From Treponema sp. (GTDB lineage Bacteria > Spirochaetota > Spirochaetia > Treponematales > Breznakiellaceae): 16,701 bases of DNA. Shown piece by piece: positions 2,763 to 16,701 of the stretch. The stretch is from positions 1-16,701 of the forward strand of contig JAITLF010000371.1 in assembly GCA_031278025.1 (NCBI GenBank), given 5' to 3'. The notes under the pieces are model-generated. The model worked only from the letters and a program-made list of their open reading frames with translations, was not told the DNA's origin and did not search any database. Both the position numbers and the translations under genes were made by a program. Every line of letters begins with the position of its first letter. The first letter of the stretch is position 1.

Positions 2763-3068
2763 TCAATGGGCTTTGCGTAACAGTCCTGTTATGCGACGTT
2801 GGACCTTTACATTTAATCTTTCGCGTATTGATTTTATTGATTCTTTCATGGGTTTTATTTTTCCATCTTTTGCTTGTTCCAACCCTTCATTTATAAGGGA
2901 ATACAATTCAAGTTTTCCTGCCAATAATTCATACGCTTCTATACTCATGACAGCAAGATCTCCGGTTCCATTTTTTGTAATAAATACCGGTTCTGAATAT
3001 TCGTGGCACAATTCAGAAATTTCATTATAGTTATTTCGCAAATCGGCGCTTGGTCTAATTGTAGGCAT
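2763..3068 (-). CDS. Phd/YefM-type antitoxin, orphan, in integron cassette 1
   Basis: A 101-residue protein starting MPTIRPSADLRNNYNEISEL, with the EPVFITKNGTGDLAVMSIEA segment that is diagnostic of Phd/YefM antitoxins, small DNA-binding proteins that neutralise a RelE/YoeB-, ParE- or Doc-type toxin and repress their own promoter. The ATG at 3066-3068 has a GGAGG ribosome site four bases upstream. No toxin gene follows; downstream lies the cassette border. The last 15 or so residues (from VKVQRRITG) are read through the recombination site at 2788/2789 into the neighbouring DNA, where the stop is found. The true antitoxin fold probably ends near residue 86. It may act as an anti-addiction gene or serve a toxin elsewhere; that is inference. 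Confidence 0.85.
   Translation of the reverse strand: MPTIRPSADLRNNYNEISELCHEYSEPVFITKNGTGDLAVMSIEAYELLAGKLELYSLINEGLEQAKDGKIKPMKESIKSIRERLNVKVQRRITGLLRKAH
2775..2794 (+). repeat. Remnant of an attC recombination site; left end of cassette 1
   Basis: GCGTAACAGTCCTGTTATGC is followed by GACG. It matches the 3' end (L'-R' part) of the full attC site at 3167-3340, which reads GCGTATACAGGACTGTTATG then CGACG. The R' box GTTATGC (2788-2794) would be cut between G2788 and T2789, defining the left border of cassette 1. The left half of this attC is missing, so it is a truncated site or a collapsed one. Confidence 0.6.
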
Positions 3069-3166: not shown

Positions 3167-3340
3167 GTATAACGTTCCGGCTCTATATGACGTTTTTACG
3201 GCTGCGATAAAGAAACCCGTAGAGTTTCATGCCGCCCAAATGTGCCGGAACAATGCCGTGGGAATGGAGCGCAGCGAAATGACCCAGCCATTGCGGAGGC
3301 TGAACCGCCCGGCGGCGAAGCGTATACAGGACTGTTATGC
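3167..3340 (+). repeat. Integron attC site 1 (174 bp)
   Basis: The R'' box GTATAAC (3167-3173) is followed by GTTCCGGCT, a long variable terminal structure, then GCGTATACAGGACT and the R' box GTTATGC (3334-3340). The outer boxes pair, as in attC sites recombined by IntI on the folded bottom strand between G and TT. About 60 bases inside (from GTGCCGGAACAATG to GCCATTGCGGAGGC) are nearly identical to attC site 2, with scattered single-base differences. The site closes cassette 1 (2789-3334). No intI gene is in the window. Confidence 0.75.
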
Positions 3341-3364
3341 GACGTATTTTTGCCTTTATTTATT

Positions 3365-3742
3365 TTAATCCACCATTAAGTTTCTTATTTCATCTTCCTT
3401 TATTGTTATATTTGCATAAGAATTTAAGACTGCATACAACATCCTGGGATTCGTTCCATCTTGTATTCTAAGAACTGCTTCTTTTTGAATATTTTTTAAT
3501 ATAATAATATTTTCATCTTTTTCCTGTTTTATAATATTTGAAAGTATTTTCTCAATTAGTTCCGCGTCTGTTCCGTCAACAACAAAACGCAACCCATATT
3601 CAAATATATCCCTTTCATCGATCTTTGCCTGATCCGATTCCTCTTCCAATGCCAATAAACCCTCTCTTCTGGCTTTCTCAGCATATTTAAGAGCACGCCC
3701 TACAATTTCAGTATATCTATTCACAAATTCATTGCGAGTCAT
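3365..3742 (-). CDS. MotA-like protein lacking membrane segments (cassette 2)
   Basis: This 125-residue protein matches only the cytoplasmic parts of the flagellar stator protein MotA. Residues 20-33 (YAEKARREGLLALE) correspond to the loop that touches the rotor: R25 and E33 have the spacing of E. coli MotA R90 and E98. Residues 52-70 (RFVVDGTDAELIEKILSNI) match the VDGTDPE segment before transmembrane helix 3. Residues 86-109 (IQKEAVLRIQDGTNPRMLYA and on) match the MotA tail after helix 4 (IQ-G-NPR). The intervening helices 3-4, and helices 1-2, are absent, so it should be soluble. ATG 3742 has AGGAG ten bases upstream. It is the second gene after the FliG-like gene, 15 bases apart. It could bind the rotor or the FliG-like partner; function unknown. 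Family assignment is from recalled motifs. Confidence 0.7.
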   Translation of the reverse strand: MTRNEFVNRYTEIVGRALKYAEKARREGLLALEEESDQAKIDERDIFEYGLRFVVDGTDAELIEKILSNIIKQEKDENIIILKNIQKEAVLRIQDGTNPRMLYAVLNSYANITIKEDEIRNLMVD

Positions 3743-3757
3743 TCTGTGATTTCTCCT

Positions 3758-4282
3758 TTATAATAAATACGAAACAATAATTTCCCCCGATTGTTCCAAA
3801 TGGCGAATGATATTTAGAATTTTTTCTTGCTTTTCTTTAACATCTTTTATTCTAATTGGAACCATAAGTTCCATATCTTCTTTCAACATTTGAGCAGCTC
3901 TTTTTGACATATTAGTAAATACTTTTTCTCTTACTATTTCATCCTGATCTTTTAAACATATGGCAAGTTCATGGGGATCTATTACTCTTAATACTTTCTG
4001 AATAGCCCTATTATCCAATTTCATAATTACATTTGAAAATTTTAATGGGAGAAATACATCCAGTGAATATTGTGTATTTTCAGAAAGTATTTTAGCAAAA
4101 ATCCAAGAATCATCTTTTAATTCAAGTGAATTGATAGTATCACAATATGTCTCTGCATCTGAACTCTGCTTATTATAGTTATAGTACCGATCTTCAGAAA
4201 TTTCAAATGAACTAATCGCAATTTTATCAAGAGTTTTATTATGACCATAAGCGGTAACAACTACAGTTTTTCTATTGCCCAT
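3758..4282 (-). CDS. FliG C-terminal-domain-like protein (cassette 2)
   Basis: A 174-residue protein. Residues 85-170 match the C-terminal torque domain of the rotor protein FliG: KLDNRAIQKVLRVIDPHELA (88-107), then EKVFTNMSKRAAQMLKED (119-136), VPIRIKDVKEKQEKILNIIR (141-160) and SGEIIV. D90, N91 and R99 align with E. coli FliG D288, D289 and R297 of the torque helix; the D-N pair also occurs in other genuine FliG proteins. Residues 1-84 match nothing I recognise, and the FliF-binding and most of the middle domain of FliG (about 335-345 residues in full) are missing. The start is ATG 4282 with GGAGG five bases upstream; a longer frame from TTG 4330 is rejected because it runs through the promoter. 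First gene of a two-gene operon with the MotA-like gene. Function unknown; a motor regulator or decoy is inference. Confidence 0.75.
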   Translation of the reverse strand: MGNRKTVVVTAYGHNKTLDKIAISSFEISEDRYYNYNKQSSDAETYCDTINSLELKDDSWIFAKILSENTQYSLDVFLPLKFSNVIMKLDNRAIQKVLRVIDPHELAICLKDQDEIVREKVFTNMSKRAAQMLKEDMELMVPIRIKDVKEKQEKILNIIRHLEQSGEIIVSYLL

Positions 4283-4300
4283 ATAATCCTCCAATACACT

Positions 4301-4330
4301 ATTATAATTTATCCACCATGATTTTGTCAA
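4301..4330 (-). promoter_or_regulatory. Consensus promoter of the FliG-like/MotA-like cassette operon
   Basis: Minus-strand TTGACA (4325-4330), an 18-base spacer and TATAAT (4301-4306), both hexamers perfect. The GGAGG ribosome site lies about eight bases downstream of the -10, so the leader is very short. The promoter lies inside the cassette, so expression does not depend on an integron Pc promoter, in keeping with genes that face against the attC orientation. Confidence 0.85.
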
Positions 4331-4373
4331 TACCTTTTTTATAAATTATCCACAGAATTTTCAAAAATATGGC

Positions 4374-4553
4374 GCATAACGTTCCGGCTGTATGCGACGG
4401 TTTGTCGGCCCGGATAAGGGCTTTGCGCAGCAAAGACCAGGGCCGACAAACTGTGCCGGAGCAATGGCGTGGGAATGGAGCGTAGCGGAGTGACCTAGCC
4501 ATTGCGGAGGCCGAGGGGCCGTAGGCCCCGAAGCGCATACAGTCCCGTTATGT
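4374..4553 (+). repeat. Integron attC site 2 (180 bp)
   Basis: R'' box GCATAAC (4374-4380), then GTTCCGG and CTGTATGCG (the L'' arm). At the other end come CGCATACAG (L', 4534-4542), TCCC and R' box GTTATGT (4547-4553). The L''/L' and R''/R' arms are complementary. The internal variable structure contains its own perfect hairpin (GTTTGTCGGCCC with GGGCCGACAAAC) and a GGGGCC/GGCCCC hairpin at 4515-4528. Cassette 2 therefore spans 3335-4547. Confidence 0.8.
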
Positions 4554-4824: not shown

Positions 4825-5884
4825 TTATTGCAGATGCCATTCCGTCATCCGGTCGGACTTATGCCCCGTTACCGCATGGGTTTGCAATGGTCAAGCCACC
4901 TTTTAACAATTCCGTGTTGAAGAAATGCCTCCATCCGTGTAAATGCCGCTCCGCTATCTCGTCATCGCTTATCCCGATGTTCCTCAACGCCCGGTGAAAA
5001 TCCTGATACATCGTTTTCCGGCATATTGGCACTTCCCCTCCGTCAAGGGAAAACACAAACCCCTCCCGTTCGTGGCTTTCAGTTCCTCAGGGTCTTTAAT
5101 CATGTTGGGAGGCAGGGGGACATTGTGTTTGTCCTTGGTCTTGGTATCCCGGTAGCCGTATTCGTCATACTGCTTGCACAGGTATATGTGGTCCGCGTAC
5201 ACAAACCCGCCTTTAAGCCCAGCACTTCGCTTGCCCCCATGCCCATTAACGCCGCCAGCTTGTTCGCCGTGTATGATATACGGTCGTTGTCCCATACCCG
5301 CTTCCAGTCCTTCACAAACAGTTTCTTGAATTCTTCGAGGATAATAATTTTCCGGGCTACCGCCTCAATCATCATGGTTTTGAGGGTCCCGAAATATCCG
5401 TTGATGGGCGGGTTCTGACACTCCTCCTCGACGAGCTTGTCAAACCATGCCTCAATGTCGTCCCTTGAGATTTTATTCACGGGCATTTTCCCGAAATAGG
5501 GGATAAGGTGGTTTTTCAAATTCTTTTTGTTGTTGTCCGCGTAAGTCCGGGTAAGGTTATGGCGCTTGCGGCGTTTCTTGAGGCAGGCGCAGGTTTTCCT
5601 TTCCCACCAGCCTTGTGCGTATTCAGCGAAGGTCGGCATATAGCCCTTGTTGGAAATCAGGTTCCCTTCTTTCAAAAGCCGGTTGCACTTAACCCGTGCC
5701 GCAGTCATATTGGTTTCCCCGGTGGAACGCCCCATTTGCCGCACGTCATTTTCATCATAGGCGTAGTAGTACACCCCACCTCCCAGTTCCCCGAAGGGAA
5801 CATCCGCCAGTACAGGGTGAAATCGTTATGGATTTTCATAAAACCCTCATTTTTGGGAATACGATGTCTTTTGCGGATACGCAT
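4825..5884 (-). pseudogene. Tyrosine recombinase (phage-type integrase), multiply frameshifted
   Basis: Pieces in successive frames add up to one integrase of about 350 residues. The N-terminus starts at ATG 5884 (MRIRKRHRIPKNEG, then FTLYWRMFPSGN). The core-binding domain follows (TFAEYAQGWW, then HLIPYFGKMPVNKISRDDIE). The catalytic domain continues through YADHIYLCKQYDEYGYRDTK, FSLDGGEVPICRKTMYQDFH, the HxxR box HGWRH and the final VTGHKSDRMTEWH, ending at TAA 4825. Frame changes are needed near 5770, 5215, 5055 and 4885. The first catalytic arginine is also lost: the usual GMRASEV reads GMGASEV. It is therefore dead twice over. It marks an old phage or genomic-island integration and is unrelated to IntI, which carries an extra domain not seen here. 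Confidence 0.85.
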
Positions 5885-6115: not shown

Positions 6116-6877
6116 ATGACGGATAAACAGGCGGAACGGCAAAAAAAAATACTGGAAATTATAGCTCAGAAAGGCTGTATTGAGGTCGCTAAACTTGCGG
6201 AAATGGCAGAGGTTTCCAAAGTTACATTGCGTTCTGATTTAGATCGGTTGGAAGAAAGAGGGATTGTCCGGCATGAAAAAGGCCAGGTTTATCCCGGTTC
6301 AAGTGATGACATCAACAACCGCTTGACCTATCATTACGACACCAAGCGTAAAATTGCCTATCGGGCCAGCGAACTCGTCAGGGATAGCGAGGCGGTTATG
6401 ATAGAATCGGGATCATGTTGCGCTATTTTGGCCGAAGAATTAACCGTAAACAAGCGCGAAGTACGTATTATCACCAATTCTGCTTTTATTGCCGCCTATA
6501 TCAGGCGGTTGCCCCAGGCCAAAATCGTGCTTTTGGGCGGGGACTACCAGAATAATGCCCAAGTGATGGTCGGTCCCATTACCCGGCAGTGCGCTCAAGG
6601 TTTTACTGTGGATAAACTTTTTATCGGAACCGACGGCTTTTCGCAAAACGGTTTTACTGGGAATGACCATTTGCGCGCAGAAACGGTTCGGAGCATGGCG
6701 CGGCAGGCCAGAGAGGTAATCATTCTTACCGAATCAGAAAAATTTTCCAAACAGGGGCTGGTTCCGCTCCTCCCGTTTAGTGAAATCGGCTCGGTGTTCA
6801 CCGATGACCTCATACCTCCGGAAAAAGAGGCTTTCCTTTCCGAGCAAGGAGTAAAAGTCTACAAAGTGGAGCTATAA
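6116..6877 (+). CDS. DeoR/GlpR-family transcriptional regulator
   Basis: A 253-residue protein of standard DeoR length. The N-terminal winged helix spans about residues 6-57 (ILEIIAQKGCIEVAKLAEMA, VSKVTLRSDLDRLEERGIV), with the family's recognition helix. A DeoR-type sugar-phosphate-sensing domain follows: IITNSAFIAAY, a LLGGDYQ segment and GFTGNDHLRAETVRSMARQA near 180-200, then ESEKFSK. Such repressors usually release DNA on binding a phosphorylated sugar made by the pathway they control. It faces the activase gene end to end (33 bases apart) and lies upstream of the kinase and glycyl-radical enzyme, so it most likely controls this cluster. The effector is unknown. Confidence 0.9.
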   Translation: MTDKQAERQKKILEIIAQKGCIEVAKLAEMAEVSKVTLRSDLDRLEERGIVRHEKGQVYPGSSDDINNRLTYHYDTKRKIAYRASELVRDSEAVMIESGSCCAILAEELTVNKREVRIITNSAFIAAYIRRLPQAKIVLLGGDYQNNAQVMVGPITRQCAQGFTVDKLFIGTDGFSQNGFTGNDHLRAETVRSMARQAREVIILTESEKFSKQGLVPLLPFSEIGSVFTDDLIPPEKEAFLSEQGVKVYKVEL

Positions 6878-6910
6878 ACCATCCAAGTGTCTACGGAATA
6901 CTTTAGGCCG

Positions 6911-7660
6911 CTAAAAAAAGCAGTCTATTCCTGCCTTGGCGATGATTGCGCGGAATTCTTCTAAATCTTCTTTATGAAGTTGAGGGACGCCCCGCATGGC
7001 ATAGGCAATTTTCAGCAGTTCATACTTTTTTTCTCCAAATTGGTGGAACGGCAGCAGTTGCGCCCGCCGTACGCCCATCCCGGTCAACAACTCTGCAAAA
7101 CCTTGAGCGTCTTTAGGGGAATCGTTATACCCCGGTATAATCGGTAACCGGATACGGACAATTTTGCCCAGGGCCAGAACGGTTTTCAGATTTGCAAGAA
7201 TCGGGCCGTTATGGACACCGGTTCCCTCAATATGGCGGCTGTCATCGTAGTGTTTGATGTCAAATAGGAGCATATCCGCTCGTTCGGCAAGGCCCATAAA
7301 GACATCGGGCAGGGCATAACCGGAAGTTTCTATTGCTGTATGGATATTTTTCCCCCGTAGAGCGTCCAGCAAGGCGGCGGCAAATTTGCTCTGGGCCAAC
7401 ACTTCACCCCCGGAAAGGGTTACACCACCCCCTGATTCTTCATAAAATAGCCGATCCTGAAGGCAGATTTCCAAAGTTTCTTCTATACGGTAGGGCCGGG
7501 AATCGAGACCGTCTCCCATGAGGCAGGGTTCCACCCGCTGACTTTCGGGGTTGGAACACCATTTGCAGGAGAGGGGACAGCCCTTGAAAAACACCACCGT
7601 CCGTATGCCGGGGCCGTCGTGGAGGCTGAATTTCTGAATATTGAATAAAATGCCTTCCAT
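6911..7660 (-). CDS. Glycyl-radical enzyme activating enzyme (radical SAM, PFL-activase type)
   Basis: A 249-residue radical SAM protein. It starts MEGILFNIQKFSLHDGPGIR, the signature opening of PFL activases. The iron-sulfur motif C28-x3-C32-x2-C35 (CPLSCKWC) and the SAM-binding GGE motif at 84-86 (VTLSGGE) are intact. Length and the lack of extra cysteine clusters match the short PflA-type activases rather than those with a ferredoxin insert. It would use SAM and a reduced cluster to form the glycyl radical on G777 of the enzyme encoded at 9051-11456. It is divergent from the kinase gene, with a shared control region at 7661-7790. Its promoter sits six bases from the ATG and no ribosome site is present. 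Confidence 0.92.
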   Translation of the reverse strand: MEGILFNIQKFSLHDGPGIRTVVFFKGCPLSCKWCSNPESQRVEPCLMGDGLDSRPYRIEETLEICLQDRLFYEESGGGVTLSGGEVLAQSKFAAALLDALRGKNIHTAIETSGYALPDVFMGLAERADMLLFDIKHYDDSRHIEGTGVHNGPILANLKTVLALGKIVRIRLPIIPGYNDSPKDAQGFAELLTGMGVRRAQLLPFHQFGEKKYELLKIAYAMRGVPQLHKEDLEEFRAIIAKAGIDCFF

Positions 7661-7666
7661 CGTCTT

Positions 7667-7695
7667 AGTATACCCCGATTCCTTACCATCTTCAA
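7667..7695 (-). promoter_or_regulatory. Activase promoter abutting the start codon (leaderless candidate)
   Basis: Minus-strand TTGAAG (7690-7695), 17 bases, TATACT (7667-7672), then six bases and ATG 7660. The geometry is the same as at glgP (192-220). No Shine-Dalgarno fits in between. Confidence 0.6.
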
Positions 7696-7708
7696 GTTTT
7701 TTATTACT

Positions 7709-7731
7709 AAAACAAGAAGACTATTTGTTTT
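7709..7731. promoter_or_regulatory. Candidate operator between divergent activase and kinase promoters
   Basis: An inverted repeat, AAAACAA (7709-7715) and TTGTTTT (7725-7731), with a nine-base spacer lies between the two divergent promoters. Its position would let one bound repressor, such as the nearby DeoR-type protein, control both directions. AT-rich repeats of this size can arise by chance. Confidence 0.35.
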
Positions 7732-7744
7732 GATAAGAAATTCA

Positions 7745-7771
7745 TTGACAAAGAAAAACTTTTGGTATAAC
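7745..7771 (+). promoter_or_regulatory. Promoter of the ROK kinase and glycyl-radical enzyme operon
   Basis: TTGACA (7745-7750), a 15-base spacer and TATAAC (7766-7771). The spacer is shorter than the usual 17, which suggests a weak or activator-dependent promoter; TAACAT (7768-7773) gives a 17-base alternative. A G-rich ribosome site (7780-7785) precedes the GTG start at 7791. Confidence 0.55.
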
Positions 7772-7790
7772 ATGGAAATGGGGGGACGTT

Positions 7791-8774
7791 GTGGAACAAT
7801 TTACGATAGGCATCGACATTGGTGGAACCAAGACGGCTTACGGCTTGCTGGATGGAAAAGCGCGAATTATCGGGCGATTCTCCCATCCGTCAAACGCCCT
7901 CTGCTCTCCCGGGCGGTTTTTTGACCAGATTGCCGCTGGCATCCATGAACTTTTGTCGGCGGAACACGTTGAAAAAGAAAGCCTTCGCGGTGTCGGAATC
8001 GGGATGCCTTCTTTTATCTTGTTTGAAGAAGGGCGAGTTGTAAAAACCGCCAACCTTCCCAATATCCGCGATTTTCCGGCTCGCGCTTACCTGATGGAAA
8101 AGCTGGGCGGTGTCCGGGTCATCATTGACAACGATGCTCATACTGCCGCCATTGCGGAATACCGGCGCGGGGCGGGACGCGGTTTTGAGAACCTGCTCTA
8201 TTGCCCGGTAAGTACCGGCATTTCCACCGGTATCATTATAAATGGAAAGATTTTTCGCGGACGTTACGGCTGGGCTGGGGAAAGTGGGCATATGATCGTT
8301 ACTCCCGATGACGGTATCGAGTGTGGCTGTGGAAACAGGGGCTGCCTTATGTCCTGGTGTTCAGGCTCAATGATCATTAAGCATATCAAAAAATGGATAG
8401 AAACCGGAGAACAATCCTGCATAACCGATTTTGCTGGAGGCGAGGAACTAAATTGTAATCATCTGGCTATGGCGTATAACGCGGGAGATGGCCTCGCGCA
8501 CCGGGCTGTTTTGCAAATGGTCAAGTTTCTGGGAATTTGGGCCTACAATCTTTATGTTACCCTCAATATCAACTGCTTTATTTTTGGCGGCGGACTGCTC
8601 AAATTATTCCGGGAACTTACCGTTAGTGGAAACAACGGAAAGAAAGGCAACCTTTTGGGTGCTATGAAAGAAGTTTTTGACGGGTATAATAAAAACTCAA
8701 TGCCCGTTTATTTCAAAGAAGCGGAGCTTGGGGATGACTTTGGCATTATCGGGGCCGCTGAACTATTATTTTGA
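7791..8774 (+). CDS. ROK-family sugar kinase (glucokinase-like)
   Basis: A 327-residue ROK protein starting with GTG, five bases after a run of G that serves as ribosome site. The phosphate-binding DIGGTK lies at 9-14 and the catalytic-base region IDNDAH at 112-117. The ROK GESGH motif is at 163-167 and the zinc-binding CGCGNRGC at 178-185 (with H167). Most ROK kinases have E directly after GCL (GCLE, a sugar contact); here it reads GCLMSWCSG, so M187 replaces that glutamate. The enzyme would phosphorylate a hexose or hexose derivative with ATP in the cytoplasm; the changed sugar contact hints at an unusual substrate. It is the first gene of an operon with the small peptide and the glycyl-radical enzyme. 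A sugar-responsive repressor without a DNA-binding domain is excluded by the intact kinase motifs. Confidence 0.9.
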   Translation: MEQFTIGIDIGGTKTAYGLLDGKARIIGRFSHPSNALCSPGRFFDQIAAGIHELLSAEHVEKESLRGVGIGMPSFILFEEGRVVKTANLPNIRDFPARAYLMEKLGGVRVIIDNDAHTAAIAEYRRGAGRGFENLLYCPVSTGISTGIIINGKIFRGRYGWAGESGHMIVTPDDGIECGCGNRGCLMSWCSGSMIIKHIKKWIETGEQSCITDFAGGEELNCNHLAMAYNAGDGLAHRAVLQMVKFLGIWAYNLYVTLNINCFIFGGGLLKLFRELTVSGNNGKKGNLLGAMKEVFDGYNKNSMPVYFKEAELGDDFGIIGAAELLF

Positions 8775-8791
8775 AGAATCAAGGAGATAGT

Positions 8792-8917
8792 ATGAAAATA
8801 TTATTCATCGTCTGCCGCACCATCGAATATGCCTTGTCCCGTAAGGAACGCCAAACGGAAGGAACTGAATTCGATGCGTGGTGTGACGGGTTATTGCCGT
8901 TCGGAAAAAGGCCGTAG
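8792..8917 (+). CDS. Hypothetical 41-residue protein
   Basis: ATG at 8792 has a strong AAGGAG ribosome site five bases upstream and begins 17 bases after the kinase stop, so it should be translated in this operon. The product starts MKILFIVCRTIEYALSRKER and ends GLLPFGKRP. It has no family I recognise. It may be a true small protein or the head of a longer gene whose tail has been lost, since about 130 bases without a gene follow before the glycyl-radical enzyme. Confidence 0.45.
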   Translation: MKILFIVCRTIEYALSRKERQTEGTEFDAWCDGLLPFGKRP

Positions 8918-8943
8918 GGGAAGTTTTGAAAGGATAGGCATAA

Positions 8944-8981
8944 GAGCTTGTTCTAAAACTTGAGGTTTTTGGAACAGGCTC
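8944..8981. repeat. Hairpin with TTGTTCTNAAACT core, copy 2
   Basis: The left arm GAGCTTGTTCTAAAAC pairs with the right arm GTTTTTGGAACAGGCTC around TTGAG, with small bulges. It shares the TTGTTCT-N-AAACT half with the hairpin at 2406-2437. It lies between the 41-residue ORF and the glycyl-radical enzyme, where it could protect or attenuate the operon transcript; there is no T-run, so a terminator is unlikely. Confidence 0.6.
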
Positions 8982-9050
8982 ATAATACAAAAATGAATAC
9001 AACGGGTTTAACATGGCTGGTTTTTGGTTGACTTTTGATAGGAGAACAGT

Positions 9051-11456
9051 ATGAACAATCACTTTGGAACACTTTCGTCACGGATGGCTCAGTTCCGCAT
9101 GAAACTGCTCAACGCCAAACCTTATGTATGTGTTGAACGCGCAAAAATTACCACTGGCACGTACCGGGAAAACATGGATCAGCCTCTGGCGATACGGCGG
9201 GCATTGATGTGTAAAAACGTGCTCGAAAAAATGAGCGTTTTTATCGAGGAAGAAACCCTGCTTGCGGGAAACCATGCTTCCAGTAACCGTTCGGCACCGA
9301 TCTTTCCCGAATATGCCATGGATTGGGTCATCGCCGAACTGGACGAATTTGAAAAACGGGATGGCGACCGTTTTTGCATTACCGAGGAAAGCAAACAGGC
9401 CCTGCGGGAAATTGCCCCGTTTTGGCAGCATAACACCGTAAAGGATCGGGGGCTTGCCGCTATGCCCGCTTCGGCGAAGGTTTTCTACGACTTGGGAATC
9501 ATCAAGGCCGAGGGGAACATCACCTCAGGCGATGCCCATCTGGCCGTTGATTACAACCGTATGCTGCGGGAAGGACTTTTGGAATACAAACACCGTGCTG
9601 AGGAAAAATGCGCTGCCCTTGACCTTACCGATTACCAAAATTTGGCAAAGTCCTATTTTTACCGGGCCATATCCATAGTTGTTGATGCCGTCATTGCCTT
9701 CGCCAAACGCTACGCCGATCTTGCCGCGGATATGGCCAAATCTGAACGTAATGCTGGCCGGCAGAAAGAACTGCTTGAAATGAGCCGGATCCTGAACAAA
9801 GTCCCTGCCTGCGGAGCGGAAAGTTTTCATGAGGCGTTGCAGTCGTTGTGGCTCGTACACCTCTGCCTCCAGATCGAAAGTAACGGGCATTCCCTTTCTT
9901 ACGGACGGATGGATCAGTTTCTTTTTCCCTACTACGACCGGGACATCAAGGCGGGAAAAATCACCGAAGAAAGCGCTTGCGAGCTTTTGACCAACCTTTG
10001 GCTTAAAACCTTTACTATCAACAAAATCCGAAGCTGGTCCCATACCCGCTTTTCCGCAGGAAGCCCCCTGTACCAGAATGTTACCATAGGCGGCCAGACC
10101 GTGGACGGTACCGATGCGGTGAATCCCTTGTCGTTCCTTATCTTGCGCAGCGTGGCCCAGACCAGACTCCCCCAGCCAAACCTGACAGTACGATATCATA
10201 AACTGCTCAACAAACAATTTATGAAGGAATGTGTCGAAGTGGTACGCATGGGATTTGGGATGCCCGCTTTTAACAGCGATGAGATCATCATCCCTTCGTT
10301 CATCGAAAAGGGGGTAAAAAAGGAGGATGCCTACAATTACAGCGCCATAGGCTGTGTGGAAGTGGCGGTGCCCGGAAAATGGGGGTATCGCTGTACAGGC
10401 ATGAGCTTCCTCAACTTTCCCAAATCTCTTCTCATTGCCTTGAATGACGGAGTAGATATTGAATCAGGTATCAAGATTTGTGAGGGCGCGGGATATTTTA
10501 CCGCTATGAATTCTTTCGATGAGGTGATGAACGCCTGGGACAAGATCATCAGGGAATTCACCCGGCAATGTGTGATCATTGATTCCGTTGCCGATATGGT
10601 GTTGGAAAAAGACACGGCAGACATTCTCTGTTCCGCCCTCTGTAATGACTGCATTGAACGGGGCCTCAATCTGAAAGAAGGCGGCGCGGTCTACGACTTT
10701 ATCAGTGATCTCCAGGTGGGTATCGCAAACCTTGCCGATTCCCTGGCGGCGATAAAAAAATGCGTTTTTGAAGACCATGTTATAACTCAGGCAGAACTGT
10801 GGAATGCTCTCCAGCATAACTTTGAAGGCACGGAAAATGAACGTATTCGCAAACTGCTCATAGCCGCCCCGAAATACGGCAACGATGACGATTATGTTGA
10901 TTTGCTGGTACGCCAAGCCTATGACGTATACATCAATGAAATGAAGAAGTACCACAATACCCGCTATGGCCGTGGTCCCATCGGCGGTATATACTATGCG
11001 GGGACCTCTTCAATTTCGGCCAACGTCCCCCAGGGCGCAGGCACTCCCGCTACCCCTGATGGCCGCAAAGCTGGCGAGCCCCTTGCGGAAGGCTGTTCCC
11101 CATCACACGCTATGGACAAACACGGCCCCACGGCAGTCTTCAAGTCTGTGTCCAAACTTCCCATTTCGGAAATCACTGGCGGCGTTCTTCTTAACCAGAA
11201 AGTAACGCCCGCAATGCTTGAATCCGAAGAAAATCGCGGCAAGTTGATATCCCTGCTCCACACTTTTTTCAACCGGCTGGGGGGTTTTCATGTTCAGTTC
11301 AATGTGGTCTCGCGGGAAACCCTGCTTGATGCTCAGGTTCACCCGGAAAAGCATCAAGACCTTATTGTACGGGTCGCGGGTTACAGCGCGTTTTTCAATG
11401 TCCTTTCCCGCCAAACCCAGGATGACATCATCGAACGGACCGAGCAAACGTTCTAA
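9051..11456 (+). CDS. Glycyl-radical enzyme of the PFL-like/diol-dehydratase family, substrate unknown
   Basis: An 801-residue enzyme of full family length. The thiyl-radical cysteine is C435 in IGCVEVAVPGKWGYRCTG (434-450), with E437 as the likely general base (GCVE, as in dehydratases and C-C lyases; true pyruvate formate-lyase has two adjacent cysteines). The glycyl radical is G777 in RVAGYSAFFNVLSRQ near the C-terminus. ATG 9051 has an AGGAG site. Its activase is encoded divergently at 6911-7660. The context of ROK kinase and DeoR regulator points to a phosphorylated sugar or polyol. I recall reports of related enzymes (E. coli PflD/YbiW type) cleaving 1,5-anhydrohexitol 6-phosphates, which would fit the kinase, but the substrate is inference. 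Annotation as formate acetyltransferase would be misleading. Confidence 0.92.
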   Translation: MNNHFGTLSSRMAQFRMKLLNAKPYVCVERAKITTGTYRENMDQPLAIRRALMCKNVLEKMSVFIEEETLLAGNHASSNRSAPIFPEYAMDWVIAELDEFEKRDGDRFCITEESKQALREIAPFWQHNTVKDRGLAAMPASAKVFYDLGIIKAEGNITSGDAHLAVDYNRMLREGLLEYKHRAEEKCAALDLTDYQNLAKSYFYRAISIVVDAVIAFAKRYADLAADMAKSERNAGRQKELLEMSRILNKVPACGAESFHEALQSLWLVHLCLQIESNGHSLSYGRMDQFLFPYYDRDIKAGKITEESACELLTNLWLKTFTINKIRSWSHTRFSAGSPLYQNVTIGGQTVDGTDAVNPLSFLILRSVAQTRLPQPNLTVRYHKLLNKQFMKECVEVVRMGFGMPAFNSDEIIIPSFIEKGVKKEDAYNYSAIGCVEVAVPGKWGYRCTGMSFLNFPKSLLIALNDGVDIESGIKICEGAGYFTAMNSFDEVMNAWDKIIREFTRQCVIIDSVADMVLEKDTADILCSALCNDCIERGLNLKEGGAVYDFISDLQVGIANLADSLAAIKKCVFEDHVITQAELWNALQHNFEGTENERIRKLLIAAPKYGNDDDYVDLLVRQAYDVYINEMKKYHNTRYGRGPIGGIYYAGTSSISANVPQGAGTPATPDGRKAGEPLAEGCSPSHAMDKHGPTAVFKSVSKLPISEITGGVLLNQKVTPAMLESEENRGKLISLLHTFFNRLGGFHVQFNVVSRETLLDAQVHPEKHQDLIVRVAGYSAFFNVLSRQTQDDIIERTEQTF

Positions 11457-12330: not shown

Positions 12331-12512
12331 GCCGACCCCCCCTGCCCTGGGGGGGTCGCCCATCCTGTCCCAGGGGGGCCGCCTTCCCTGCATTAGGGAA
12401 GCCGACGCCCCTGCATTAGGGACGCCGACGCCCCTGCGCTAGGGACGCCGCCTTCCCTGCGCTAGGGACGCCGCCTTCCCTGCATTAGGGAAGCCGCCTT
12501 CCCTGCGGGGAG
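12331..12512. repeat. 23-bp tandem array with palindromic cores
   Basis: Five full 23-bp units run from 12378 to 12492 (GCCGCCTTCCCTGCATTAGG plus GAA is the type unit), followed by a 20-bp partial unit to 12512. Two diverged longer units, one with CCCCCCC/GGGGGGG arms, precede them at 12331-12377. Each unit has a CCCT-N5-AGGG core, extended to CTTCCCT/AGGGAAG in some. Variants swap CTT for CGC in the left arm and GCATT for GCGCT in the loop. There are no unique spacers, so it is not a CRISPR array. Confidence 0.75.
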
Positions 12513-12648: not shown

Positions 12649-14037
12649 CTACGCCGTCTGAACGATTTTCCCCCGCGCTTTGTCAAGTTGTAACGTTACC
12701 CGCTGGAGGGGTCTGTCGATAATCAGCGCGATTTGACAGATTTCAACCAGCGTCCCCTGAGAGATTTCTCCGTATATCGTGACGAACGCTTTTTCATCAA
12801 CGACAACCCGTTTCCGCAAGTTGTCGGTTATCGCCGAAAGCCGCTTTATTTCAGCATCCAGTTTGTTGCGTAATTCGATCATCTTTTGGTAGCGGCCACC
12901 GGTAGCGTCTCCGCTGGCAGAAATAAGCGTTTTTAATTTCTCCAGTTTTACGGTAAACGGCCTCAGTCGGTTTATAGTTTTATCAATTGCTTTCTGCACG
13001 GTAAAATCGACCCCGACATGGATTTTCGAGGTTTTTCCCGCCGTCCTGCCTATTTTTGCACATTTCATGCCATGCACGGCGTAAATTTCCGCCCCCATGA
13101 TGAAGCCCCGGCTCCCGACGTTGAGCATTCCCATCGTGTAGATGCTCGCGTTAAGAATTTCCATGTTGATAGTTATGTTTCCCCAGGCGGCGATCTTACA
13201 ATTCTCGACAAACCGCGCCTTTACCTCGCCGCCGGCTTTTACCGTTGCCTGCCCGCGTCCGATGATGCCGCCCCGGACTTCGATGCCGCCTTTGACAACG
13301 ACATCGGTGGCGTTCAACGTCTGCTTTGCCAAAAAGTTTCCGCCGACATAGACTTTGAATCCGTCCGCCACAGAGCCGTCAAGTTCGACATCGCCGGGAA
13401 AATTGATGTTGCCGGTACTATAGTTGACATCGCCCCGAATGACCAGCTTGTCGCTGACGGAAAGAACGCCGTTGTCCTCAATCAATTGGCCGTCGCTTGA
13501 CGCATAAATATACTTGTCGTCGGAGAAAGTATTCTTACCAAGGGCCGGACTGGACACGGTTTGGGTCTCAAAAGGCACAACATCTCCATGAACGTTTGTT
13601 CCCGTCCGGCCTATGGATTCAGGGATTTTCTCGGCAAGAATTTGCCCTTTTTTTACAATGGTAAAGGGCGAAAATCTTCGATAATCGGCCTGTTTGCCCT
13701 CTTCAGCGATGGGACGTGTATTCTCAAGATAGTTGTTCTTCACAAAATAGGCGGGACAAGCCAAAACGGGCGGCGTTCCTTCCGCAATAAGGATACCGAT
13801 TTGGGCGCGTTTGGAAAGGTTTGCGGCGAGCGCGGCTTTTTCAATTTCCTCGTATCGAACACCGTAAACAATTTTGAACCGCGCAAGCAAAGTTTTGATA
13901 TACTCACTGGTAATAGGCGCGCCTTCTCCATAGGGCGGTATAAAATCGGCGCGCGCTTCCGTATCGTTGTTCAAAAAAGTAACCGTAATGTATCCGTCTT
14001 TCTCACCCGATACGGGAACCGTGAGTTTCTCCTTCAT
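12649..14037 (-). CDS. FapA/DUF342-family protein
   Basis: About 462 residues. The N-terminal half is the FapA region with the GxxLAEKIPxxxGxxGxxVxG pattern (KKGQILAEKIPESIGRTGTN). A repetitive polymer-forming beta-helix follows (VIRGDVNYSTGNINFPGDVE, then VVKGGIEVRGGIIGRGQATV), and then a charged helical, probably coiled-coil C-terminal part. Family members in Vibrio affect polar flagellation and protein localisation; in spirochaetes a flagellar or cell-pole role is plausible but unproven. It follows alaS closely. I chose ATG 14037 because GGGA, overlapping the alaS stop, is then six bases away; ATG 14043 would start directly against it. Coupled translation with alaS is likely. No terminator is obvious after the stop. 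Confidence 0.85.
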   Translation of the reverse strand: MKEKLTVPVSGEKDGYITVTFLNNDTEARADFIPPYGEGAPITSEYIKTLLARFKIVYGVRYEEIEKAALAANLSKRAQIGILIAEGTPPVLACPAYFVKNNYLENTRPIAEEGKQADYRRFSPFTIVKKGQILAEKIPESIGRTGTNVHGDVVPFETQTVSSPALGKNTFSDDKYIYASSDGQLIEDNGVLSVSDKLVIRGDVNYSTGNINFPGDVELDGSVADGFKVYVGGNFLAKQTLNATDVVVKGGIEVRGGIIGRGQATVKAGGEVKARFVENCKIAAWGNITINMEILNASIYTMGMLNVGSRGFIMGAEIYAVHGMKCAKIGRTAGKTSKIHVGVDFTVQKAIDKTINRLRPFTVKLEKLKTLISASGDATGGRYQKMIELRNKLDAEIKRLSAITDNLRKRVVVDEKAFVTIYGEISQGTLVEICQIALIIDRPLQRVTLQLDKARGKIVQTA

Positions 14038-14046
14038 GGGCATTCC

Positions 14047-16177: not shown

Positions 16178-16362
16178 ACTTCTCTTCCCCTGAGCGGAAG
16201 GCGCATATCGGGACACCGCTTTTCGGGAAAATACGCAAAAACTCCCAAAATCCCCCATCCTCTCCCCGCCTGATGAAGCCCTGATACTCAGAAACCCCCC
16301 GCGCAGACCCGTTTCAGGCCCGTTTCCCTGTATTTCCCCCATGAGAAAACGGAAATTTGAAC

Positions 16363-16701
16363 CCTAATCCAGTAAGGATTGCAAGCCTAATCCTTGCCGG
16401 ATTGCGGCCCTAATCCTAGATAGGATTGCGAGCCTAATCCTAGATAGGATTGCGACCCTAATCCTGTATAGGATTGCGAGCCTAATCCTATATAGGATTG
16501 CGGCCCTAATCCTATATAGGATTGCGGCCCTAATCCTATATAGGATTGCGAGCCTAATCCTATATAGGATTGCGACCCTACTCCTAGATAGGATTGCGAC
16601 CCTAATCCTTGCTGGATTGAGAGGCTAATCCTATATAGGATTGCGGCCCTACTCCTATATAGGATTGCGGCCCTAATCCTAGATAGGATTGCGAGGCTAA
16701 T
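16363..16701. repeat. 24-bp palindromic tandem array running off the window
   Basis: Fourteen full units plus the start of a fifteenth. The type unit is CCTAATCCTATATAGGATTG followed by CGGC, CGAG or CGAC; three units (first, second, eleventh) are 23 bp. The core AATCCTATATAGGATT is a perfect 16-bp palindrome. The outer AATCC/GGATT arms are nearly constant (two units have CTCC on the left) while the centre varies (TATATA, TAGATA, TGTATA, AGTAA, TTGCC, TTGCT). No spacers between units, so not CRISPR. It lies upstream of alaS and downstream of structured repeat copy 2. Confidence 0.85.

Follow-up and report, generated by a model that had tools for sequence, protein, structure and literature searches.

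A Treponema cassette with adjacent genes for soluble FliG-like and MotA-like proteins, a possible mobile mimic of the flagellar rotor-stator contact

Contig JAITLF010000371.1 of Treponema sp. (assembly GCA_031278025.1), analysed here over its whole 16,701 nucleotides (the window), carries a putative integron-type cassette with two adjacent minus-strand genes, one for a protein built on the C-terminal domain of the flagellar rotor protein FliG and the other for a soluble version of the cytoplasmic domain of the stator protein MotA. The identity of both domains and the linkage of their genes are firm. In known motors the two faces that meet to make torque are present only within the motor itself, with MotA in the membrane. 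Our preferred reading, close to an even call, is that the cassette codes for a mobile and soluble mimic of the rotor-stator contact, with parts that would bind each other and probably the motor of the host.

Both genes start with ATG and lie 15 nt apart (3365-3742, MotA-like; 3758-4282, FliG-like), and profile searches gave significant matches for both products. The NCBIfam MotA models match the MotA-like protein with a best E of 4.2e-12; its score of 45.6 bits is far below the cut-off of 340 for the full-length MotA equivalog. The MotA structure in the PDB was matched by phmmer in two pieces (80-135 and 223-248), and hhalign aligned residues 9-112 to a MotA profile (probability 99, E 3.5e-18), interrupted by one large gap, 74 columns long. 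Some 74 MotA residues, which contain transmembrane helices TM3 and TM4, have been cut out in one block, and the joint that replaces them lies at about 3508/3509. All four transmembrane helices of the ion channel are missing, and the protein cannot conduct ions. Pfam yields no family for this protein up to E 10, which would follow from loss of the membrane portion of MotA_ExbB. Protein searches returned 535 MotA-like and 121 FliG-like homologues, of which the best 120 in each case are the listed relatives referred to below. None of the 120 listed MotA-like proteins has a 19-residue stretch with a mean Kyte-Doolittle value of 1.6 or more, against 2.25-2.53 over 19 residues in five canonical spirochete MotA proteins. 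MotA R90 and E98 are important charges of the cytoplasmic domain, and the alignment agrees with the preliminary description of this DNA in placing R25 and E33 at these positions.

The FliG-like protein scores 99.5 bits against Pfam FliG_C (PF01706; E 1.7e-28), for which the cut-off is 23.3, and its match to FliG among PDB sequences has E 3e-28. The full-length model TIGR00207 reaches 109.5 bits against a cut-off of 226.7 and is covered only from 201 to 329 of its 338 positions; the N-terminal and middle domains, through which FliG binds FliF and FliM, are missing. Instead, the protein begins with a family-specific domain that has no confident fold match among the PDB matches listed, and the near-invariant residues specific to the family are missing from the parent proteins. 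FliG K264, R281, D288, D289 and R297 are important charges of the torque face. They correspond to K111, R128, E135, D136 and R144, the first four of which are well conserved among FliG-like relatives. The preliminary description had aligned D90, N91 and R99 with D288, D289 and R297; this assignment has to be replaced, as that stretch lies about 45 residues before the true equivalents, E135, D136 and R144.

The two genes also recur together. The MotA-like and FliG-like lists share 39 contig sizes, whereas 120 shifted comparisons gave 4.1 on average and at most 8, and 34 pairs remained once the five sizes that were not unique had been left out. On one contig of 22,126 bases the pair is annotated as AGMMS49579_07300 and _07310, with a FliG-LRR-MotA fusion as _07360. 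A scan of genome contigs gave nine loci, in eight spirochete metagenome-assembled genomes and Candidatus Fibrimonas termitidis. When co-occurrence was examined in the nine genomes with a FliG-like gene of the cassette type, the MotA-like gene was found directly downstream in seven (G002, G003, G004, G005, G006, G010 and G254), with a 4-nt overlap of stop and start in five (G002, G004, G005, G006 and G010) and spacings of 17 and 24 nt in the remaining two. In G019 the pair members lie on different contigs, and in G276 the FliG-like gene is the sole member on its contig. By eye, the pair in L004 adjoins an attC-like site, and none was seen in the parts inspected of L002, L003 and L006, where ordinary genes surround the pair. 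In L112 (3718-6581), a FliG-like gene that stands alone on its contig follows two flagellar rod genes of the FlgE/F/G type at a distance of about 0.5 kb.

Furthermore, FliG-like and MotA-like domains are joined in one chain in L008, L010, L077, L082, L084, L085 and L086. A search with a FliG-LRR-MotA-MotA protein, which scored the 8,000 candidates with the most shared words, gave 136 long relatives. Among the best 120 of these, purpose-built hidden Markov models (E≤1e-3) located both domains in one chain in 83 and MotA-like domains alone in the remaining 37. The commonest order is FliG-MotA-MotA (62 of the 83); other chains carry two, three or four MotA-like domains before FliG (four, seven and three proteins, respectively), two FliG-like before two MotA-like domains (one protein), or five MotA-like domains and then one to three FliG matches (six proteins). 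Five was the maximum per chain, under a length limit of about 1,100 amino acids (aa), and recalls the five MotA subunits of the real stator. By the stricter precomputed Pfam matches, 49 of the 120 have FliG_C, 86 have LRR_14 and four have FliM plus TPR. A membrane-like segment is missing from 102 of the 120, and both charge positions hold R/K and E/D in 209 of the 272 MotA-like domains of the long relatives. Fusion of parts that are also found as neighbours is standard evidence of interaction, and as these parts occur in both forms we infer that they interact. The earlier proposal that the pair would be a self-contained interacting module is thus well supported by its recurrence, its frequent translational overlap and its natural fusions in both orders; binding is likely to proceed via the old torque interface, as the fusions and the conserved residues suggest. 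The idea also came through both refuting checks named in the preliminary description, on profile matches and on co-occurrence.

The description of the locus as an integron cassette with its own promoter of two perfect hexamers holds for the promoter (Table 1), although such sites as a class are not enriched (4 found, 6.3 expected). As for the cassette, AAC/GTT repeats stand at both ends, spaced about 1.2 kb, and the right one folds much better than its shuffled versions (z -7.15), but the left one does not (z -0.65). Read on the opposite strand, the unit would run from about 3175 to 4381 with the same gene content. The window has no recognisable integron integrase, and none of 20 related draft genomes has an intI gene above the TIGR02249 cut-off, so that the cassette label rests on the sites. 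In G081 (C5:166745-167212) we observed a broken, partial intI-like match of 209.8 bits with two stops, a possible remnant of an integron integrase. A published integron survey (PMC3607928) reports integrons in several Treponema; two species from termites, T. primitia and T. azotonutricium, showed no trace of them.

Table 1. Features of the cassette and its surroundings in the 16,701-nucleotide window.
Feature	Position	Strand	Basis or remark
Cassette between G/TT cores	exactly 3335..4547	.	one of two readings of the attC-like sites
Left attC-like site	3168..3340	.	AAC core from 3168, GTT core 3334-3336
Right attC-like site	4375..4553	.	AAC/GTT repeat, strong hairpin
Promoter TTGACA-18-TATAAT	4301..4330	-	12/12 consensus match
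GGAGG ribosome site, 5' of FliG-like gene	4288-4292	-	sequence
FliG-like gene, 174 aa	3758..4282	-	FliG_C and PDB FliG matches
Family-specific N-terminal alpha/beta domain, residues 1-75	4058..4282	-	near-invariant G13, C47, N51, W60
FliG_C domain, residues 83-169	3776..4036	-	torque-residue equivalents K111, R128, E135, D136, R144
MotA-like gene, 125 aa, soluble MotA cytoplasmic domain	3365..3742	-	NCBIfam, PDB, hhalign matches
MotA-like residues 9-78, MotA stretch between TM2 and TM3	3509..3718	-	hhalign, phmmer piece 1
MotA-like residues 79-112, MotA after TM4	3407..3508	-	hhalign, phmmer piece 2
Neighbouring cassette, Phd/YefM antitoxin-like gene	2763..3068	-	library match; third core site 2780-2794

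Elsewhere in the window, no evident toxin gene adjoins the Phd/YefM antitoxin-like gene. A tyrosine recombinase (Phage_int_SAM_3; 4859-5774, minus strand) extends across several frames and is apparently broken. Genes for a DeoR regulator, a radical-SAM activase-like protein, a ROK family protein and a PFL-like glycyl radical enzyme are grouped at 6116-11456, and a FapA-type flagellar assembly protein A gene adjoins one for alanyl-tRNA synthetase (12649-14043). There is a 23-bp repeat array at 12378-12506, and a 24-bp tandem repeat (14.3 copies) at 16361-16701 gives GLGSQSY-type repeats in translation.

The MotA-like family was found in 24 of the 291 genomes of the order of G002 (E≤1e-13), or 19 once five with only a canonical MotA of 260-270 aa are set aside, in 5 of 392 genomes across the phylum (E≤1e-15; two with open reading frames of 263-264 aa that are perhaps canonical), and in 3 of 167 genomes of Fibrobacterota, the phylum of Ca. 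Fibrimonas. In L109 and L110, from the Fibrobacterota genome G630, a long row of DUF4116-like repeat genes was seen by eye, several with a MotA-like domain. In 19 of 20 hosts tested, mostly draft genomes, FliG of the canonical length is present (G005, the exception, has a 425-aa FliG_C frame), and 19 have a FliM match (none in G272, a partial one in G009). A single IMG/VR contig carries two MotA-like copies, one of them intact and near genes with weak tail matches; the second (L079:4603-5000) is divided between two overlapping frames. Three IMG/VR scans gave no further contig, the scan with the FliG-like protein gave nothing, and the 50,697 INPHARED records hold no MotA-like match.

In some genomes further modules derived from the switch protein FliM lie nearby. 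In G010, a FliM-middle-domain-TPR protein (PF02154, E 3.3e-33) is encoded after a MotA-like-Sel1-TPR protein in which both EIDQLL and EIDALL occur. Beyond their canonical FliG and FliM, G122 and G286 each have a FliG_C frame next to a FliM frame (455 and 436 aa in G122, 328 and 426 aa in G286). Within about 20 kb, an island of T. primitia ZAS-2 (G026; P0264) encodes a FliG-LRR-MotA-MotA protein, two near-identical long MotA-like proteins (with DUF4116 repeats in the one scanned), a FliM-like protein that scores 42 bits against a cut-off of 27, and a protein with SQEEIDQLL at its start. Motifs of the EIDALL type bind phosphorylated CheY (CheY-P) in FliM and FliY, according to PMC9126983. A DNA pattern for QxEIDxLL gave 30 matches across nine genomes, and the reversed pattern used as a control gave none; by the open reading frames, 16 of these are FliM or FliY N-termini, seven lie in islands, one is a truncated FliM paralogue and six are elsewhere or apparently accidental.

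Taken as a soluble mimic, the FliG-like protein would present the stator-facing domain of the rotor on a new N-terminal domain without the parts that anchor FliG in the C-ring, and, given the known FliG architecture, it should not occupy the normal FliG place. The MotA-like protein would keep the rotor-facing domain of the stator without the membrane channel. As free proteins, the former would bind host stators and the latter the host rotor, and the strength of a brake or decoy action on flagellar rotation would depend on the ratio of the two; the EIDALL motif would couple this tunable clutch or decoy to CheY-P in some relatives. Such an action on the host motor is plausible in view of the flagellated hosts, the conserved charges and the FliM-type CheY-P motif of a few relatives.

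A number of findings weigh against the mimic. R144 is kept in only 75 of the 120 listed FliG-like relatives, and EIDALL is missing from the window pair and found in one of the 240 listed MotA-like and FliG-like rows. In long relatives the FliG-like halves often match weakly (no more than 27 domains are above 60 bits, and FliG residues were tallied in these alone), and the FliG charge positions of L082 read T/R/Q/V/R. The E98 equivalent is lost in L008, in most domains of L010 and in two MotA-DUF4116-type proteins; such charge loss in several long relatives fits strict mimicry poorly. An AlphaFold2 (AF2) model of a fusion has a predicted template modelling score (pTM) of 0.62, a per-residue confidence (pLDDT) below 50 in the linker (131-141) and no interface measure; the alignments used for structure prediction comprised 35 and 26 rows. 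In addition, relatives are fused to LRR, TPR/Sel1, MORN and DUF4116 repeats, combinations that resemble no motor regulator known to us, and in Ca. Fibrimonas (L008:492-4209) a MotA-FliG fusion gene follows DO-GTPase2 and GAP1-N2/M genes, 13 nt after the latter.

These repeat fusions, the Ca. Fibrimonas operon, the decayed charges and the weak FliG-like halves would all fit another reading, in which motor domains serve as all-purpose interaction modules of a signalling or conflict network of repeat proteins unconnected with the flagellum, the pair being its smallest form. We regard this as rather doubtful, though a serious competitor, as nearly all hosts tested retain a canonical-length FliG and a FliM match, FliM-type CheY-P motifs and FliM middle domains sit within the same islands, the small pairs keep their interface charges, and GAP1-N2 was found in just one of six hosts tested. 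That same operon is the lone link to conflict systems, and the preliminary suggestion of a defence role by analogy with Zorya found no support. Zorya ZorA/ZorB share MotA-like sequence and form a membrane proton channel accompanied by further defence genes, whereas the window pair has no membrane part, and no PADLOC model, in a library that presumably includes Zorya, matched either window protein at E≤0.01. An anti-phage or phage-borne function, for instance through motility, is unlikely despite the mobility on cassettes and the IMG/VR contig, which stands alone among three scans, with nothing for the FliG-like protein and no MotA-like match in INPHARED.

Still less probable, from the gene arrangement, is a selfish pair of the toxin-antitoxin type, in which one protein would do harm (by jamming the motor, for example) and the other would mask it and so stabilise the cassette. 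Such a pair would fit the layout of two small adjacent genes under a promoter of their own, next to a Phd-like antitoxin cassette, but the separate contigs in G019, the lone FliG-like gene in G276 and the large fusions are atypical of it. Decaying fliG and motA copies caught in cassettes as neutral fragments would explain why both proteins are partial relative to their parents; with open frames, 535 and 121 homologues and near-invariant family-specific residues that the parents lack, we consider this already refuted by conservation and give it almost no weight.

Compared with known components, the FliG-like protein shares the FliG_C fold and torque charges with canonical FliG but has a new N-terminal domain in place of those that bind FliF and FliM, and the MotA-like protein shares the cytoplasmic fold and the R90/E98 equivalents with canonical MotA but lacks transmembrane helices and is not accompanied by a MotB gene. 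Unlike canonical motor genes, the pair is mobile and lies outside any flagellar operon. In a FliG_C tree, three low-scoring treponeme FliG proteins, which we take to be FliG1, stand apart (98/97) from canonical FliG, FliG-like and fusion proteins, the inner order of which the tree leaves unresolved. YcgR has a PilZ fold, and EpsE is glycosyltransferase-like, unlike either window protein. The YcgR brake (PMC10140304) and EpsE clutch (PMC3000366) are soluble and act on FliG or MotA or the rotor, as proposed here, but their folds are unrelated and they are not made from motor parts. FliG1, the second FliG of Borrelia, is likewise a spirochete FliG paralogue, longer than the FliG-like protein, and is described in PMC7225975 as mattering for torque and not for flagellar assembly. 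Components of the DO-GTPase/GAP1 type, which adjoin one fusion gene here (a link seen once), are described as conflict systems in PMC7159879, and FliG and MotA are not mentioned in its main text. Existing annotations read 'flagellar motor component MotA', 'flagellar motor switch protein FliG', 'Leucine Rich Repeat domain protein' or hypothetical, and we found no description of soluble MotA or MotA-FliG fusion proteins in the opening parts of abstracts of the open-licence PMC literature. The domains are known, whereas the large protein family that these relatives form and a system of free torque-interface modules are apparently undescribed.

More broadly, and with somewhat greater reserve than for the cassette itself, we propose that treponemes and some Fibrobacterota may possess a soluble shadow of the torque generator, made of free MotA-, FliG- and FliM-derived modules that are linked to sensor-like repeats and CheY-P motifs and travel on cassettes and at least one phage. 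Such a system would either plug into the motor and so control motility, or reuse its contact as a portable switch for signalling. As the isolate T. primitia ZAS-2 carries such an island, the proposal is testable. Small free proteins that are covalently joined in many relatives offer natural, soluble tools for work on a contact that is difficult to investigate, and their existence suggests that mobile genes may tune the motility of gut spirochetes, or that motor parts have been recruited into a new signalling system.
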